The notes under the pieces: model-generated | Seen by the model: the letters and a program-made list of their open reading frames with translations, nothing else | What the model was told of the DNA's origin: nothing | Databases searched by the model: none | NCBI GenBank assembly: GCA_010094025.1 | Contig: ML991892.1 | Location: 1 to 40,683, forward strand | Reading direction: 5' to 3' | Length of the DNA: 40,683 bases | Origin: Viridothelium virens | Taxonomy: Eukaryota; Ascomycota; Dothideomycetes; Trypetheliales; Trypetheliaceae | Translations under genes and position numbers: made by a program | Shown: positions 32,906 to 40,513 of the stretch, in pieces | Numbering within the stretch: position 1 is the stretch's first letter | Layout: each line of letters starts with the position of its first letter

Positions 32906-33758
32906 ATGCGGAGTTTTACTTATTATATTATAAGTATGGCTGGATTAAATAATCTTTAATAGGTTCTAATAATTAAGCTAACAAATTATATTATTTTTAA
33001 GCATAAATAGGATTATTTAAGTATAATAGCATATATTAGAGGTGCTTACTTATACTTCTTTGCTGCCCTTATACCCTATCTAATAGCGCCCTATAACCAC
33101 ATCTTATAGATATAATTAATTAAAGCTAAAAACTGCATAATTATAAATATAAATTAATTCTTTTAAGTAATTTATAAACTTATTAACCCGCACTGCTAAG
33201 ACCCTTTTATTATTTTTTTCCTTAAAAGCTAAGCAAAGGATATGGCTTTATAATAAGTTTATCCTCATAATAACTTCTGGCGTAGGTGCTTAGGTAGTGT
33301 TGCTAATATGCAAGTTAATAATTAGATTATTAAAGCTAACCATCCAATTATATTTGCTAATAGGGATTTTTTAGCTTTAATTCCCCTAAGCTATATTATA
33401 ATAACTTGCTATTATAATTAGATATTTCCTATTTTATAGTTATACCTAAGCCTATAAAGTTTTATTAATATAATTTTTGCTAAATTACTCCTTTTATTTA
33501 CTTATATTTTGGTTATTTTTATTAAAAACCTTAATAATATAAATAAGTTTTGGGATGCTTTACTTTAATAGGTTTTACTTAGGATTTATAATAACTTACT
33601 TAATTAGGTGCGGCCTAGTTTAATCCTTATAATAATTAAAGGATATGCTAATATAATATTATAGCCCCTTTGTGCGGAGCTTTAGTCTTATAAATATAAT
33701 ATTAATTGCTTATTTATATCTATAACCTTTATTATATTAGTGCTAAGGTATTCCTTAT
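32906..33758 (+). pseudogene. Unidentified gene remnant V, interrupted by the LTR retrotransposon
   Basis: From an ATG at 32906 the plus strand stays in one frame to the insertion point at 33758 (about 284 codons). Blocks: MRSFTYYIISMAGLNNL, DYLSIIAYIRGAYLYFFAAL, NNFWRRCLGSVANMQVNN, HPIIFANRDFLALIPLSYI, NKFWDALL, VRPSLILIIIKGYANIIL and PLCAEL. Stops are at RIP-type codons. The 5-bp TSD ends this part, and the same phase resumes at 40514. No family recognised. Confidence 0.45.
33754..33758. repeat. Target site duplication, left copy (CTTAT)
   Basis: Five bases directly abutting the TG end of the left LTR. An identical CTTAT abuts the right LTR at 40509-40513. Confidence 0.95.
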
Positions 33759-34263
33759 TGTTATGAGCCTATACCCCCTGGTATAAGCACAGCTTGTAGC
33801 AGGTACGTAGAAGGGTCTCAGGGTTTTTCACGTAGGAGCGGAGTGTCAAGGATCCGATGATGTAAGAAGGGTTACTAAGCTTTGAACAACTTGGTAATGA
33901 ATAAGGGCTTTTTCAATTTGGCTTGTAACTAACTGTAGATACAGTTTTGGTATGATACAGTAAAGTAATAAAACGCGAGGAAGTTAGTTAAGCTGGTTTC
34001 CTCCTATATATATATACTTGTGATTTCCTTGATCACAGCTGTTATCCTTCTGATTAGATCTTTACTAATCTTGAGTGGATTATTACTGATCAGTGTGATA
34101 ACCTGTGATCCGTGGGTGATCACCCTAGATTGCTCTACCCTGATCTATGGTTTATTATTACTAATCAGTTATGTGACCTTTACTTATTACAACCTGTCTG
34201 TGGAGTGCTTGCAGCAAGTATAAAGGAGATGGCATTCAGCCTTAATATGGCTGGGTTGTAACA
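33759..34263 (-). repeat. 3' LTR (left), 505 bp
   Basis: Begins TGTTATGAGCC on the plus strand and ends GTTGTAACA; read on the minus strand it starts TGTTACAACCC. It aligns over its full length, without net length change, with 40004-40508. Differences are almost all C/T or G/A. Its outer half (33759 to about 34010) is well preserved and its inner half is RIPped. It retains the unmutated TAATAAAACGC at 33966-33976 and a TATA tract at about 34005-34016. Confidence 0.96.
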
Positions 34264-34280
34264 TTACCTCTCCCCTTTTT
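34264..34280 (-). promoter_or_regulatory. Polypurine tract (plus-strand DNA primer site)
   Basis: On the minus strand AAAAAGGGGAGAGGTAA lies immediately upstream of the 3' LTR start TGTTAC. This is the expected position and composition for the primer of second-strand synthesis and it independently fixes the element's orientation. Confidence 0.9.
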
Positions 34281-34299
34281 AACTGTCGGCCTGACAGTT
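34281..34299. other. Perfect 7-bp hairpin next to the polypurine tract
   Basis: AACTGTC-GGCCT-GACAGTT forms a 7-bp stem with a 5-base loop, directly upstream of the polypurine tract in element orientation and downstream of it for the antisense ORF promoter. Unmutated. Function unknown. Confidence 0.6.
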
Positions 34300-34310
34300 G
34301 CTCCGGTGTA

Positions 34311-34320
34311 GTATATATAG
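34311..34320 (+). promoter_or_regulatory. TATA-like box for the antisense ORF
   Basis: GTATATATAG on the plus strand, about 106 bp upstream of the ATG at 34426, followed by a pyrimidine-rich stretch (about 34345-34375) of the kind found at fungal transcription starts. It faces away from the 3' LTR, opposite to gag-pol. Confidence 0.5.
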
Positions 34321-34425
34321 CAGCTAATAATGTATTTAACTGTTATAGCTTCTGCCCGCATTCCCGCTTCTTCCATACTTTATTATTACCGTCTTATTGC
34401 TGAACTCTATAAGGCTTTTATTATA

Positions 34426-34824
34426 ATGCGTCCTTACCGCAATTGTGTGTGTTAAAAACTGGACTGCTGTATCAGTCCTAACTCTCAAAGGTGCCTAGAG
34501 TGTGTAAGAAAAAACTGTCCTTGCAATCTAGCCTTTTCTGAGGTTAACTTTAACAAAATTAACCATGAGATAAATTGGGTTTGGGATAAAATAATAAAAT
34601 CCATAGCTAAGACTAATTATTTGTAGAAATAACTGGAGTTCCTTTATAAACATTAACAGTCTTTAGCTTTTAATAAGACTTAAAACATTCTAAACCTTAA
34701 GTTTAAGGAAGGAAAACCTAAGGAGGTTACTTTACTTAAGGAGTAAGACCTTTTTTATACTATTCCCAGAATTGCGTGGGATATATTAATAAAGGAATTA
34801 ACCTCCTTTCCCACTAATTTTTAA
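34426..34824 (+). pseudogene. Antisense Cys-rich ORF inside the retrotransposon
   Basis: Plus-strand frame of 133 codons from ATG (34426) to TAA (34822-34824), opposite to gag-pol. N-terminus: MRPYRNCVC, DCC, then NSQRCLECVRKNCPCNLA (34489-34542), a dense Cys cluster reminiscent of small zinc-binding or Zn-cluster modules; next a likely coiled-coil region (INHEINWVWDKIIKSIAKT, LEFLYKH), an acidic-looking segment (KFKEGKPKEVTLLKE) and the tail FYTIPRIAWDI. Six internal stops are at codons that RIP creates from Gln/Arg/Trp. It ends about 15 bp before the end of pol, so the two are convergent. Small proteins of this type, with C..C motifs followed by a coiled coil, are common hypothetical proteins in filamentous fungi; that link is from memory and should be tested. 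Confidence 0.72.
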
Positions 34825-34837
34825 CTTAATTACATTC

Positions 34838-37800
34838 TTTTTAATAGTGTGTTTTCCTCCTTAAATTTTGGTATTATTATATTTTTTCTCCACACTTAGC
34901 TAGTGTAATCCTTATTTCCTAAGTATTTTTTAAATTTAGGTATCCCTTCTATTTTATTAAGTATTTTCTGTTTTTTTTTTGTAGGATCTTTTTTACTTTA
35001 AATTTATATTCCTCTTCTGACTTATAGCTGAATATCTCTGCGCATAATATGTTTTTATTTATTAATTTTAATAAAAATAAATAAAATATTGGGTGGACTT
35101 AAGCATCCTGCGGAAGGTTTAACTTATAATTAACTTTATTTTTCTTCTCTTTAATAATAAATGGACTAACCTTTACCGCATTAAGCTTTTTATAAGGTCT
35201 TTTTGTTTTTAAATTTCTTATAAGTAAATATACTTTATCCCCCTTCTTTAGTTAAGGTTTGTTTACTTTTTTATTACTTTAAATTAAACTGTTATTTCTT
35301 TTATTAATATTTTTGGCTATCTTATTGTGTATTATTTTTATTATTTTTTTATGATCTTCTCTTAGTGCTGACGTAACTTTAATAGGTATTGGTTGAATTA
35401 GTAGTGGTATATACCCTGTTAGTCCTTGGATGGGTGCAAACTTGGTTATACTGGATTCTCTGGTGTTAATACATAACTATGCTATAAGTAATAATAATAC
35501 CCAATTATTTTGTAGGTTATTAATGTAGTGTCTTAAGAATTGTTTTAGTAATTGGTTTATCTATTTAGTTTGTTTATTAATTTCCTTGTGATACGCTATT
35601 GATAACTTGGTTTTGGTCCCTAAGTTTGCTATTAACATTTGGAAGAATTTGGCTATAAACCTTTTATCTTAGTCTAATATTGTTAAGATAGGTAATCTAA
35701 AGTATAATATTACTCTTTTAAAGAGTATTTATGCTGTTTCCTTTATCCCATACTTTTTGTTAAATGGGATTAGTATTATATATTTTGTTAGTCTGTATAT
35801 TATTACATAGATTGCTGTGTAGACTTCTCTGGTTACTGGGTGCTTTAACGCAGGCAAGTCTATAATAAAGTTTATTATAATCTGCTCCTAAGGCCTTATT
35901 AGTGCTTAAATTGGTTGGATGGTGCCTTTTCTTCTTTGGGTACTGTGCTTGTTTTTTTTGCAGTAATTATACTTTGCCACATAGTTCTGGACCTTTTGCT
36001 TTATATTATTAAAAATGCAGTTTTGAGATATATTCCTAAATATCTATGCAACTTTAGGATGTCCATATTGCGGTTTGTTGTGATATCTTTAAATATAATA
36101 GTTAACTTTATTATTCAGAATTTGTAGTTTTTAAGTAACAATGGGGAATTATTTGTCCTTATCTTCCAAGATGTTAAAAATTAATCTAAACTCTTGGGAA
36201 GTGCTTTTAAGAGTGCTGTTATCCTTTTTCTTGAACACTGCTTGGTACACTTTTTTATTCCCTTAATAGTCTTCTTATTAACTTAAAGCATCTGCTCTTC
36301 TATTTTCTTTTTCTGGTGCGTAATGTATAATAAATTTGTATTATTTAAGGAGTTCTGCCTATCTAACTTGTTTTTAATTTAATTATTTTATTATTATAAA
36401 TATTAATAGATTTTTGTGGTTGGTATAGACATCCAGTTTGGGCGTTTCTTTTATATACGCTCTCTAGTGCTCTATTGCTGCTACTATTGCTAGCAATTCC
36501 TTGTTATGGATGTTATAATTTAGTTCAGCAGGAGTCATTTTTCTTAAGTAGTATTCTATCAGTCTCTACTTCCCATCTACCCATTGCAGTAGGCAGGCGC
36601 CTATTGCAAAATCTAAAGCATCCGTCTTAAGCTTTAGTGGTAACTTTAGGTTGCAGATTATTAGTTCTAAATCTTTTGCAATTTCTTTTTTAATAATTTT
36701 AAAGGCTTTTTTTTGTGGCTATTCTTATGTAAATAATTACTTACCCTTTATAAGGTCTGTAAGTAATTTTGCTTTCTTGGAATATTTAGGGATAAACTAT
36801 TAATTAAAGTTTATAAATCCTAAGAAACTCTAAACCCCCTTAACATTTGTTAGCCTTAGCTATATTAAGATTGATTATATTTTTTCTGGTTTTATTTAAA
36901 TTTAATCTTTTCTTATTACATATCCTAAGAATATTACTTATTTTTGGTGGAAAATATACTTCTTTAGTAATAATTTAAGATTCCTTTTCCTTAAATATTC
37001 CAGTATTATCTTTACATGTTTTACATATTCTTCCTTTATTTTAGAGTAAATTAGTATATTATTAAGATATACAATTATAAAGATGTCTAGATATAATTGT
37101 AATATGTTATTAATCTATTCCTAACAGGTCGTAGGTACATTTATTAATCCAAACAGCATTACTAAGGATTTAAATAGTCTGTATTTTATTCTAAATACAG
37201 TTTTTTATTCCTCACCTTTCTTTATGCGGATAGAATTGTAGGCATCTCTTTAATCTAATAATGTGAGCTACTTTACTCCGGTTAGGCAGTCTCTTAGTTC
37301 TGCTGCATTAAGTAATGGATACCTATTTTTAACCATAATAGCGTTAAGTTTTTAGTAATTAACACATAGTCGCAGTTTTTTATTCTTCTTGGGAACAAAA
37401 AGTATAAGATATCCTGCCAAAAACTCTAACTTTTAGATAAATCCTTTCCTAAGGTTTTCTCCTAGCTATTCTTAAAGCATCTTTAGTTCTCTTTATAACT
37501 GGGGATATAAAGGTCTAAAAGTAGGTTGCTTCCCTAGCTCCAATTTTATTTTATAGTCCCACAGTTAGTGCGGAGGCAGTGCTTTTTCTGCCCTCCCTTT
37601 TTTAAAGAGTAGTAAATACTCTTTATATTTAAGAGGTATTATTGTAAGTTCAGCGTCCTTACGCTCTGCGTTATCCCTTAGTTAACCTTCTACCTTTATT
37701 AAAGTGTTAGATATGCCGGATCCAGTTTGTCCTTTTTAGTCATCCTTATTTGTCAACATTAAAGCCACACCATAGCTCATCCTTATCTTATCCCTAAAGC

Positions 37801-38400
37801 AATTCTCTGCCCCTTTAGGGTCCCATATAATGCCGTATTTGCACCTAAAGAATGTAATTTCCCCCATTTCTTAATTAATATCCGGGTTATAATTTTGTAA
37901 CCACAGTAATCCAAGTATAATATTATACCTAATTAGATTTATAATATCAAGTTGGATTTCCTTAGTATGCCCTTACGTAATTATGGAAATAAGTTCTATT
38001 TTAATATCCACTTATCTTTGTCCTACAAATTATGGTCTGGTAGCTCTATATAAACTATATAGCTTTTCCTTTTCCTTGGTATTAAGTCCAATCTTTTTAG
38101 TGGTTATTGCTGCTATTATGTTTACTAATGCATTACTATTAATTATTGCTTTAACTTATTGGTTTTTAATCTTAACCTTAATCTTAAATAATCCTGTTAT
38201 TGCTTTATTAGGGGATGTTATATTACAACTTATTTATAACCCCTTTATAAGAAGTTGTCAACTTTTCCCTCTTCTTTATTCATTTTCCTGGCGGTTTTAT
38301 AGCACTTTTGCTATTCCAGTTTTATATCCTTATAATCCAGGCGATATTTATAGCAATTTAGGTTATTGCATTAATATTTCGTATAATAGTCCGCTTGCTC
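34838..38400 (-). pseudogene. pol: pol polyprotein: protease, reverse transcriptase, RNase H, integrase
   Basis: Minus-strand frame, in phase throughout. Protease: KAIINSNALVNII, where the DSG active site is NSN (38132-38140), followed by IILGLLWL. Reverse transcriptase: RDAYNSIRIKKGEE (about 37250-37210), FGLINVPTT and VYLNNILIYS, where the catalytic DD is NN (37058-37063). RNase H: TDALDFAIGACLLQ with Asp kept at 36620-36622, then [18 protein letters not shown]. Integrase: VAKYNYCKKNKH zinc-domain end, INFIIDLPALKHP (about 35860), IAYHKEINKQT, FAPIQGLTGYIP, then KKGDKVYLLIRN and an SH3-like LNAVKVSPFIIKEK and VHPIFY block. Beyond EEEYKFKVKKIL (about 34990) a degraded chromodomain is possible but not clear. 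Stops are of RIP type. Confidence 0.93.
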
Positions 38401-38989
38401 TTAGCAGTGTTTAACACACACAGTGCTAACACATCTTAGCCAGTTTGTTATTTGGCACATAAGTAGTTTGTAGGGTGGTTTTAGGCATAGTCCTTGTTTA
38501 GATTAACTTCTTCCCAAAGCTACACTACTATTTACTCTGTGATATAGGCAGATTTCTTTCTCTCTGCAGAACTTTTTGTTTAGTTGACTATAATCCCCCT
38601 CTTGCTTTTAGTGGAATTCACAGTCCCTTGCCCAACACATTATAAAGTGTTAGAACTTATAATGTAATTTCTGCTTATGTTATTCTTTTGCCTATTAATA
38701 TTTTTTGCATTTATTATCTTGACATTCCTCCCATCCAATTATCCAATTGTGGTCGGGATGTTGTGAGAGTCTATGGACTTCTTTCTAATATCAGAAATTC
38801 TTTTGTTCTTAATCCCACATGGTTGGTAGAAGCTCAGGCTTCACGCTCACACTTGCCCTATAAACATCACATTCCTGTAACAAGCATTATCCTAAAAGTT
38901 AATAATCTGGGTGGTCCTCTGTTCTAGATACCAAGTATGTGTAATATTTATGCCCCTTTTAAGTCGCTTCCTTCCCTTAGATTATATAC
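38401..38989 (-). other. gag-pol junction segment
   Basis: Between the clear end of gag and the protease. In the gag phase it reads RDCEFH, KKFCRE and KEICLYHRV, a Cys/His-bearing block often found before the protease in fungal Ty3 elements. The protease and later domains are in a different phase (a net -1 shift relative to gag), so either frameshifting or an indel lies here. Confidence 0.55.
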
Positions 38990-39984
38990 GTGGGTGATTA
39001 TAAGTCCTTTTGGCTATTTGCAGGGTTAGTAACTTCTTCCCATAAAGCACTCTCTTCCTCTGCATCAGATTTATTGTTAATTGTCTAATACTGGAAAACA
39101 TTTAAGTTCCTAGTATTATTATCACTTATTGGTTTGTTAATAATAATTTTATTTTCTCCTAAATGGACTTGGGTTGCCATATTAAATTCTTCTTTACAAT
39201 CCACCTTATTCTTGGATTAATAGTTTCTTGTTATATGCCCTGGTTTTCCACAAGCATAGCACTTTTTTTTTGTTTAAGCACCTCTTTTTTTCTTACTCTG
39301 CGCAAGGTTGGAGTATTGGACTCCTTCCATTAGTTTGCTACTATTATAATGTTAAGTAATTCCTCCCATTCTTCCTGCTGGAATGTATAAGGCTAATCGC
39401 CTCTTTATACGCCTTGCGTAAAGTTTATTATCCAGTTTAATTAAGGCATTAATAAGTTCTCACAATGTGTTAATAAAGCCGCTATAGCGCATTAGCTCAT
39501 CCTTAACATTATTCTTAAGTCCTCTTTAGTATATGGGTTGTAATACTTTATTATTCTATTCCAGTTTATTGGAATACTTTTGGAACTTAGCTGCGTAATC
39601 CGCTGTTAAAGTTTTTTGTACCAGATTTTAAACTGCTTACTCTGCTATCTTAACTTTGTTAAAGATCCTAAAAATTTGTCTAAGCTCTCTTTTAAATTAA
39701 GGGAATCTTATAAAGAGACTGTTAGGGTCCTCTAAGTTATTAAGATATAAAGTTAATTTGGGTTTTATTTAGTACTGGGCCTGTCCTCTTAAGTATAATA
39801 AGGCTACTAAGGTCTATTAATTGTCTAGAATTCTTTTAAATAAGAAGTAAAGTTGGATTTAGCACAGCTATTCTTTTAACTTGCTTTTTTCCCCAAAGTA
39901 CTTGTTGGGTTGTCCCACCTTGCCTTCCTTTAATAGGGCTTTAGTGCAGGACTCCGGCCGCGGAGTGGATCCTAATTAACTCAT
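38990..39984 (-). pseudogene. gag: gag with CCHC zinc knuckle
   Basis: Minus-strand ATG at 39982-39984, only 19 bp inside the 5' LTR, reads in frame MS*LGSTPRPES, then KYFGEKSKLKE, QIQLYFLF, YLRGQAQY, FKRELRQIF, LTADYAAKFQKYSNKLE, RGLKNNVKDELMRYSGFIN and LIKLDNKLYARRIKRR, the standard retrotransposon gag fold (PF03732-like). The nucleocapsid knuckle KCYACGKPGHITRNY lies at 39220-39264; the last Cys is Tyr (TGT to TAT). Stops are of RIP type. Gag would form the virus-like particle and bind the element RNA. Confidence 0.92.
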
Positions 39985-40003
39985 CCTTAAGGGCGTTTTA
40001 TTA
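39985..40003 (-). promoter_or_regulatory. Primer binding site of the self-priming type
   Basis: Directly inside the 5' LTR, minus strand TAATAAAACGC (40003-39993) followed by eight bases to the gag ATG. The same word TAATAAAACGC occurs on the plus strand inside the 3' LTR at 33966-33976, so an element transcript beginning there (GCGTTTTATTA) would pair with this site over exactly 11 bp. In the 5' LTR the copy is RIPped to TAATAAAATGT (40211-40221). No match to a common tRNA 3' end was evident. Confidence 0.8.
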
Positions 40004-40210
40004 TGTTATAAGCTTATACCCCCTAGTATAAGCACAGCTTGTAGCAGGTACATAGAAGGGTCTTAGGGTTTTTCACGTAAGAGCGGAGTGTTAAGGATCT
40101 AATAATATAAAAAAGGTTACTAAGCTTTAAACAACTTGGTAATAAATAAGGGCTTATTTAATTTGGCTTGTAACTAACTGTAGATACAGTTTTAGTATAA
40201 TACAGTAAAG

Positions 40211-40261
40211 TAATAAAATGTGAGGAAGTTAGTTAAGCTGGTTTCCTCCTACATATATATA
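40211..40261 (-). promoter_or_regulatory. LTR core promoter: TATA box and predicted start site
   Basis: Minus strand AGTATATATATGT (TATA at 40252-40261). About 40 bases downstream lies ACATTTTATTA (40221-40211), which in the less mutated 3' LTR is GCGTTTTATTA, the 11-base word complementary to the primer site. Self-priming requires the transcript to begin at or very near this word, and the spacing from TATA is compatible. Confidence 0.65.
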
Positions 40262-40275
40262 CTTGTAATTTCCTT

Positions 40276-40400
40276 GATCACAGCTGTTATCCTTCTGATC
40301 AGATCTTTACTGATCTTGAGTTAATCATTACTGATCAGTGTGATAACCTGTGATCCGTGGGTGATCACCCTAGATCGCTCTACCCTGATCTGTGGTTTAT
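40276..40400. promoter_or_regulatory. GATC-rich cluster in the U3 region
   Basis: Nine GATC sites in about 120 bp, several as TGATCA or CTGATCAG palindromes, directly upstream of the TATA box in element orientation. In the other LTR several are destroyed by C-to-T or G-to-A changes. Could be a repeated factor-binding site. Confidence 0.5.
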
Positions 40401-40508
40401 CACCACTAATCAGTCACGTGACCTTTACTCGTTACGACCTGTCTGTGGAGCGCTTGCAGCAAGTACAAAGGAGATGGCGTTCAGCCTTGACGTGGCTGGG
40501 TCGTAACA

Positions 40509-40513
40509 CTTAT
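40509..40513. repeat. Target site duplication, right copy (CTTAT)
   Basis: Identical to the five bases at 33754-33758. Confidence 0.95.

Follow-up and report, generated by a model that had tools for sequence, protein, structure and literature searches.

A RIP-mutated Ty3-type retrotransposon of Viridothelium virens that would prime reverse transcription with its own RNA

The element and its complementary pair

The last 7 kb of the window, that is of the whole stretch of 40,683 nucleotides analysed here (contig ML991892.1 of the ascomycete Viridothelium virens), are occupied by a complete Ty3-type long terminal repeat (LTR) retrotransposon. All its features lie on the minus strand. It is bounded by two LTRs of 505 bp with ends TGTTAC...TAACA, the 5' LTR at 40004-40508 and the 3' LTR at 33759-34263, and the 5-bp target site duplication CTTAT, present at both sides of the element, adjoins them at 40509-40513 and 33754-33758. 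With a probability of about 0.9 this is a Tf1/sushi-like element, altered by repeat-induced point mutation (RIP), that would self-prime its reverse transcription. It is a further example of a known mechanism, not a new one.

The inner border of the 5' LTR is at 40004, where its minus-strand end reads ...TTATAACA, and it is abutted by the primer-binding site (PBS) TAATAAAACGC at 39993-40003, whose 10-nt core spans 39993-40002. These 11 nt 3' of the 5' LTR are perfectly complementary to the motif GCGTTTTATTA found intact in the 3' LTR (33966-33976, LTR nt 288-298), the putative start of R. The TATA box of the 3' LTR (34005-34016) starts 40 nt upstream of this motif. In the 5' LTR, which has a TATA-like stretch at 40250-40261, the motif reads ACATTTTATTA (40211-40221) with two G-to-A changes relative to GCGTTTTATTA, and the longest complement that this RIPped LTR itself offers is 8 nt. 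Pairing in the window ends at both borders of the duplex, with C/C before it and C/A after it. The original prediction had given the coordinates and sequence of the 11-mer pair exactly, and was right as well about the intact and the RIPped state of the motif in the two LTRs and about its distance of some 40 bp from the TATA box. The perfect 11-base complement that it claimed holds against the 3' LTR motif: among 5000 dinucleotide shuffles of the 3' LTR none gives an 11-nt complement 0-5 nt after the LTR, and 10 nt are reached in three. Genome-wide GCGTTTTATTA occurs 59 times and the reversed word 12 times.

The two LTRs are identical at 460 of 505 positions, with C/T or G/A at 43 of the 45 that differ, which together with stops within the domains fits RIP; since the differences are of this type, LTR divergence was rejected as a clock. 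Reverse transcriptase (36914-37396; RVT_1, 76.7 bits, 7 internal stops), an RNase H piece (36569-36718; RT_RNaseH_2, E 2.7e-8) and integrase follow each other in Ty3/gypsy order, the integrase being read from its C-terminal SH3 domain (35066-35242; SH3_Tf2-1, 45 bits, above the Pfam cut-off, 1 internal stop). A chromodomain-like piece with two stops lies at 34880-35026, the right position for a chromodomain; with TAG read as X it reaches E 0.037 and 14.4 bits with Chromo, below the cut-off of 25.1. None of the 9 matches listed by a search of the genome with PF00385 (Chromo) is in the window. One of those listed, C168:1031-1123 (25.4 bits), is on a contig that also has copies of this family, none of which was tied to the match (copies found in the same genome are named here by contig: C161a, C17, C45 etc.). 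The polypurine tract AAAAAGGGGAGAGG, read from the sequence at 34267-34280, ends 3 nt ahead of the 3' LTR. The frame 3' of the PBS (39841-39984), which we take to be gag-like by resemblance, has a stop at codon 3.

Some observations concern the assembly around these repeats. The start of contig C164 (1-419) is 100% identical to the 5' LTR of the window and shares also its 50-nt flank, and therefore the end of the window was probably assembled twice. About 15 contigs begin or finish within this LTR. Partial LTRs stand head to head or tail to tail a few bases apart at C45:2082-2599, C69:163099-163984, C34:1-680 and C154:17046-17439, possibly as a result of nested insertions, inversions or assembly joins.

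Pairing in the copies of the family

An LTR search of the genome gave at least 46 matches (40 of the 78 candidates scored) and a leader search gave 22 LTR/leader junctions (22/22 candidates scored), with C45 and C17 matching over less than 50 nt. Motif and PBS are present in all 22 junction copies, 201-226 nt apart, the motif having been placed by a pattern that favours it. In cis, pairs 6-10 hold in every copy and pairs 4 and 5 in 21 copies each. Most copies have C and G at pairs 1-3 only; these pairs survive in 14, 13 and 12 copies and elsewhere show C/T or G/A letters. No copy pairs at any of positions -1 to -4. A 7-bp tandem duplication, CATAACA, is found at the junction of 5' LTR and PBS in C103 (66774-66802) and is unique among the 22 copies.

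The original prediction that pairing stops after exactly 11 bp stands for the window but not across copies, where the 11th pair is present in cis in only 18 of 22, and the lasting duplex is probably of 10 bp. Two copies, C103 and C108, have C as PBS base 1; of the C/T sites no more than 45 nt from the PBS, T occupies 1/12 in C103 (the fewest of all copies) and 8/12 in C108. Nt 11 of the motif is T in 7 of the 63 LTR loci described below. The two LTRs of an element are alike at insertion. Yet where a PBS follows, 19 of 20 LTRs have T at the CpA of the 7th base from the LTR end, against 2 of 34 where none follows, a contrast best explained by RIP within the element, with its outer edge spared (edge effect); the LTR-end pattern used for these counts caught 20 of the 22 junctions, all except C17 and C45, and left one further LTR end near a contig end unclassed. 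PBS base 1, which is also in a CpA, would most simply be an old C turned T, so that the T at 40003 in the window is probably a RIP product. With an old C facing A or T at nt 11 of the motif, the lasting duplex would thus have 10 pairs.

The alternative of a Tf1-like duplex of 11 nt directly next to the LTR, under which the C at PBS base 1 would have arisen later in two copies, is less probable, and we give it about one chance in four. It agrees with the pairing of position 11 in 18 of 22 copies, with the 11 nt used by Tf1 (PMC7175516) and with the near absence of transversions at +12 (2/63), the conserved block having no sharp end at 10. It has however to accommodate that the C is found in the copy with the fewest T nearby as well as in C108, that C to T in CpA is a RIP change while T to C is not, that RIP at the junction was near complete, as judged from the neighbouring LTR-end CpA (T in 19/20), and that nt 11 of the motif is T in seven loci. 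Some caution is due in counting pairs, as RIP can create an apparent 11th base pair.

Changes at pair 5 bear on the 10-bp core. In C161a, GCGTCTTATTA is found with TAATAAGACGC, and pair 5 departs from the common form on each side, giving C-G for U-A; neither difference is in the RIP direction. The same C-G occurs in C17, which has GCGTCTTATTT with TAATAAGACGC. A C at nt 5 of the motif is present in 5 of the 63 loci, mostly without a known PBS. In trees built without the motif and PBS columns C161a is placed among copies with T-A (support 0.77 and 0.88 in the longer tree, 0.10 and 0.52 in the shorter one), while C17 joins C45 with support 1.0. Because C161a and C17 are on different branches, the two-sided change probably occurred twice; if C-G is ancestral, it is the T-A form that is derived instead. 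The search for covariation in other copies that had been proposed was favourable: pair 5, the single pair to vary otherwise than by loss, is changed on two sides in C161a and C17, though on one side only in C45 (Fisher p 0.013, uncorrected for kinship).

Leader, putative start of R and folding of the RNA

Most LTR elements use a tRNA primer. No TGG is found within 30 nt of the LTR in any of the 22 junction copies, and no PBS starting with TGG 0-5 nt after the LTR (0/22). No ordinary tRNA site is thus present, and the match to a tRNA 3' end that would have spoken against self-priming is missing throughout. A comparison by eye of the 30 listed tRNA genes with the listed places of GCGTYTTATT (about 100 of 133) revealed no overlap. 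It is therefore very improbable that a tRNA or tRNA fragment primes this element and that the complement to R is secondary, even though such priming is the usual mode and the tRNA search listed 30 genes only.

The original prediction had drawn a second argument from the gag ATG, whose closeness to the LTR would leave no room for a tRNA site. An ATG is indeed found 19 nt from the LTR (39984-39982), but codon 3 of its frame is a stop in the window (39976-39984) and in 22/22 copies (TAA in 21, TGA in C74a), and the triplet aligned with the ATG reads ATA in 14 of the 22. Either RIP struck this one codon in all copies, or the frame is a very short upstream one. The ATG was accordingly rejected as a certain start of gag, and the argument built on it is weak.

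The start of R was studied in LTRs that were located by their U5, the sequence upstream being then inspected. The 75 loci obtained were reduced to 66 by removing by eye nine in which the scored stretch was not the R start (C161:7967, C34:803, C154:17248, C168:9540, C17:700, C45:2902, C34:467 and two of C156), and to 63 distinct loci by merging identical sequences. The locus C168:9540 is a mis-set copy that does carry GCGTTTTATTA slightly downstream. The position of the motif was set by a score that includes the motif and so favours it, and types of U3 were assigned by patterns of our own making. No transversion is found in the 63 loci from -6 to +10, that is in nt 1-10 of the motif and the six pyrimidines that precede it. 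The counts at the neighbouring positions are 2 at -7, 24 each at -8 and -9, 7 at +11, 2 at +12, 9 at +13 and 22 at +14; columns with few transversions exist elsewhere too (3 at +18, 1 at +23).

This block is preceded by five types of U3, found in 28, 24, 7, 2 and 2 loci. In a comparison of nine representatives, no match between any two of types A, B, C and D is better than E 0.007, while type E has stretches in common with C (E 9e-14) and a short one with A (E 4e-5). A TATA-like box starts 40-47 nt upstream of the motif in 62 of the 63 loci; at the remaining one the rule picked a TATA at 59. A transcription start would be expected to look like this, with GCG behind a conserved pyrimidine tract and TATA at a nearly constant distance under varied promoters. 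At C17:1-800 the start of a type-B LTR directly follows a type-D LTR with PBS and some 21 nt of leader.

The pyrimidine tract and motif could also be an initiator, conserved without any PBS, and the inverted pair around R-U5 might then be a protein-binding or promoter element, or a product of chance, unrelated to priming. Such an origin appears most doubtful, about as much so as priming by tRNA: a promoter element leaves unexplained both the complement at the PBS position beside the LTR and the two-sided difference of C161a, and chance stands below 1 in 5000 shuffles.

Folding of the 5' RNA, a check suggested with the original prediction, gave a divided answer. The central duplex between self-primer and PBS, with at least 8 pairs, is part of the predicted minimum-energy fold in 15 of 22 native leaders but not in the window's own leader. 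A U5 block, GTTACAAGCC (40165-40174), may form a second duplex with the LTR end AGCTTATAAC (40005-40014) beside the PBS; 8 of 10 pairs are present in the window copy. Of the three-duplex pretzel described for the 5' RNA of Tf1 (PMC10085805), the predictions recover a part, with the central duplex alone firm. The third duplex (U5 ATCCTTRA with leader TYAAGGAT) was rejected as evidence, as it pairs in nearly all copies but shuffled sequences do so equally.

A number of points weigh against self-priming. Only 3 of the 22 junction copies match in cis at 11/11 positions, with 10/11 in 9, 9/11 in 7, 8/11 in 2 and 7/11 in 1. Every one of them is RIPped to some degree, no copy free of RIP having been found, and the best-kept pairs are A-T, which RIP cannot change. 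Outside the duplex, -5 (21/22) and +15 (22/22) pair by letter as well, and single conserved A-T columns therefore mean little. Individual copies break the pairing: the PBS of C84a has an A-to-T change at pair 4, C45, the relative of C17, has C at nt 5 of the motif opposite A, and in the 5' LTR of the window the RIPped primer is unpaired with the PBS in the predicted fold. In related copies the duplex of LTR end and U5 is better than shuffles in energy (p <= 0.02) in 14 of 22 and in run length (p <= 0.05) in only 10, it is predicted together with the primer duplex in 6 of 22, and the third duplex reaches p < 0.05 in 1 of 22. The set of 30 tRNA genes is also a partial one.

Probable self-priming and its place among known elements

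Self-priming of the Tf1 type, as originally proposed, is nevertheless supported by the motif block conserved under five types of U3, the absence of TGG in 22 junction copies, the differences at pair 5 and the SH3_Tf2-1 domain. Transcripts would begin with the G of GCGTTTTATTA, some 40 nt downstream of the TATA box, and their initial 10 (or no more than 11) nucleotides would fold back on the PBS about 200-225 nt further on. RNase H would then cleave behind this duplex, releasing a 5' fragment that would serve as primer for minus-strand DNA. Within this scheme the complement is observed, whereas the RNA 5' end is deduced from the distance to TATA and from the conserved block.

In Tf1 the first 11 nt serve as primer and RNase H cuts between nt 11 and 12 (PMC7175516). 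Self-priming is said to be common in Tf1/sushi elements (PMC10085805), and predictions extend it to most plant elements of the Tcn1 clade (PMC6317226). For the plant element SM-Tcn1 evidence of neither tRNA priming nor self-priming was found (PMC2864245), and therefore not every relative shows the signal; the available part of PMC3248453 contains nothing on priming.

The element resembles Tf1 and Tf2 of Schizosaccharomyces pombe in the complementarity of the (here putative) RNA 5' nucleotides to a PBS beside the 5' LTR, in lacking a tRNA site, in the SH3_Tf2-1-type end of its integrase and in having members that share R-U5 and differ in U3, as reported for Tf1/Tf2 (PMC10085805). It differs from them by its 505-bp LTRs heavily changed by RIP, by a duplex of probably 10 instead of 11 nt, by U3 types A-D as unmatched as noted above, and in being known from sequence alone. 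Tj1 of S. japonicus (PMC4600332) and Tosmo1-3 of S. osmophilus (PMC10085805) are also reported to have a PBS complementary to the putative 5' end of their mRNA; a pretzel is held possible for them, in contrast to the central duplex that alone is firm here. The U3 of Tosmo2 differs too, the break lying 9 bp away from the U3-R junction (PMC10085805). The LTR element crapaud of Podospora anserina, which has a chromodomain and is subject to RIP, forms subfamilies with different 5' halves of the LTR but conserved R and U5 (PMC10787394); the term 'self-prim' occurs 0 times in the main text of that paper. MAGGY, skippy and sushi-ichi stand in the Tf1/sushi tree of PMC10085805 and are compared here by that listing alone. 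With self-priming known, and with U3 exchanged close to the U3-R junction in Tosmo2, U3 differences in Tf1/Tf2 and LTR subfamilies having R and U5 in common in crapaud, the two main features of the family have precedents. Relatives outside the genome were sought in collections covering no fungal genomes, with no match of a 21-letter leader pattern or a reverse transcriptase piece in viral_contigs or of the SH3 piece in genome_contigs.

A more speculative proposal, which we hold with clearly less than even confidence, joins these two features. Whole promoters could be swapped at the fixed start of R, which would act as the joint, while PBS and primer would be rewritten from each other in each cycle, since the plus strand copies the self-primer; a single step would then be enough to carry a change from R into the PBS, as in C161a, and one self-primed family would have come to have at least four promoters unrelated to each other.

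The family allows self-priming to be read from many copies together, with the start of R standing out under different promoters and RIP mutations helping to identify the old letters. If copying of the primer rewrites the PBS, families of this kind could show such rewriting in natural sequence.

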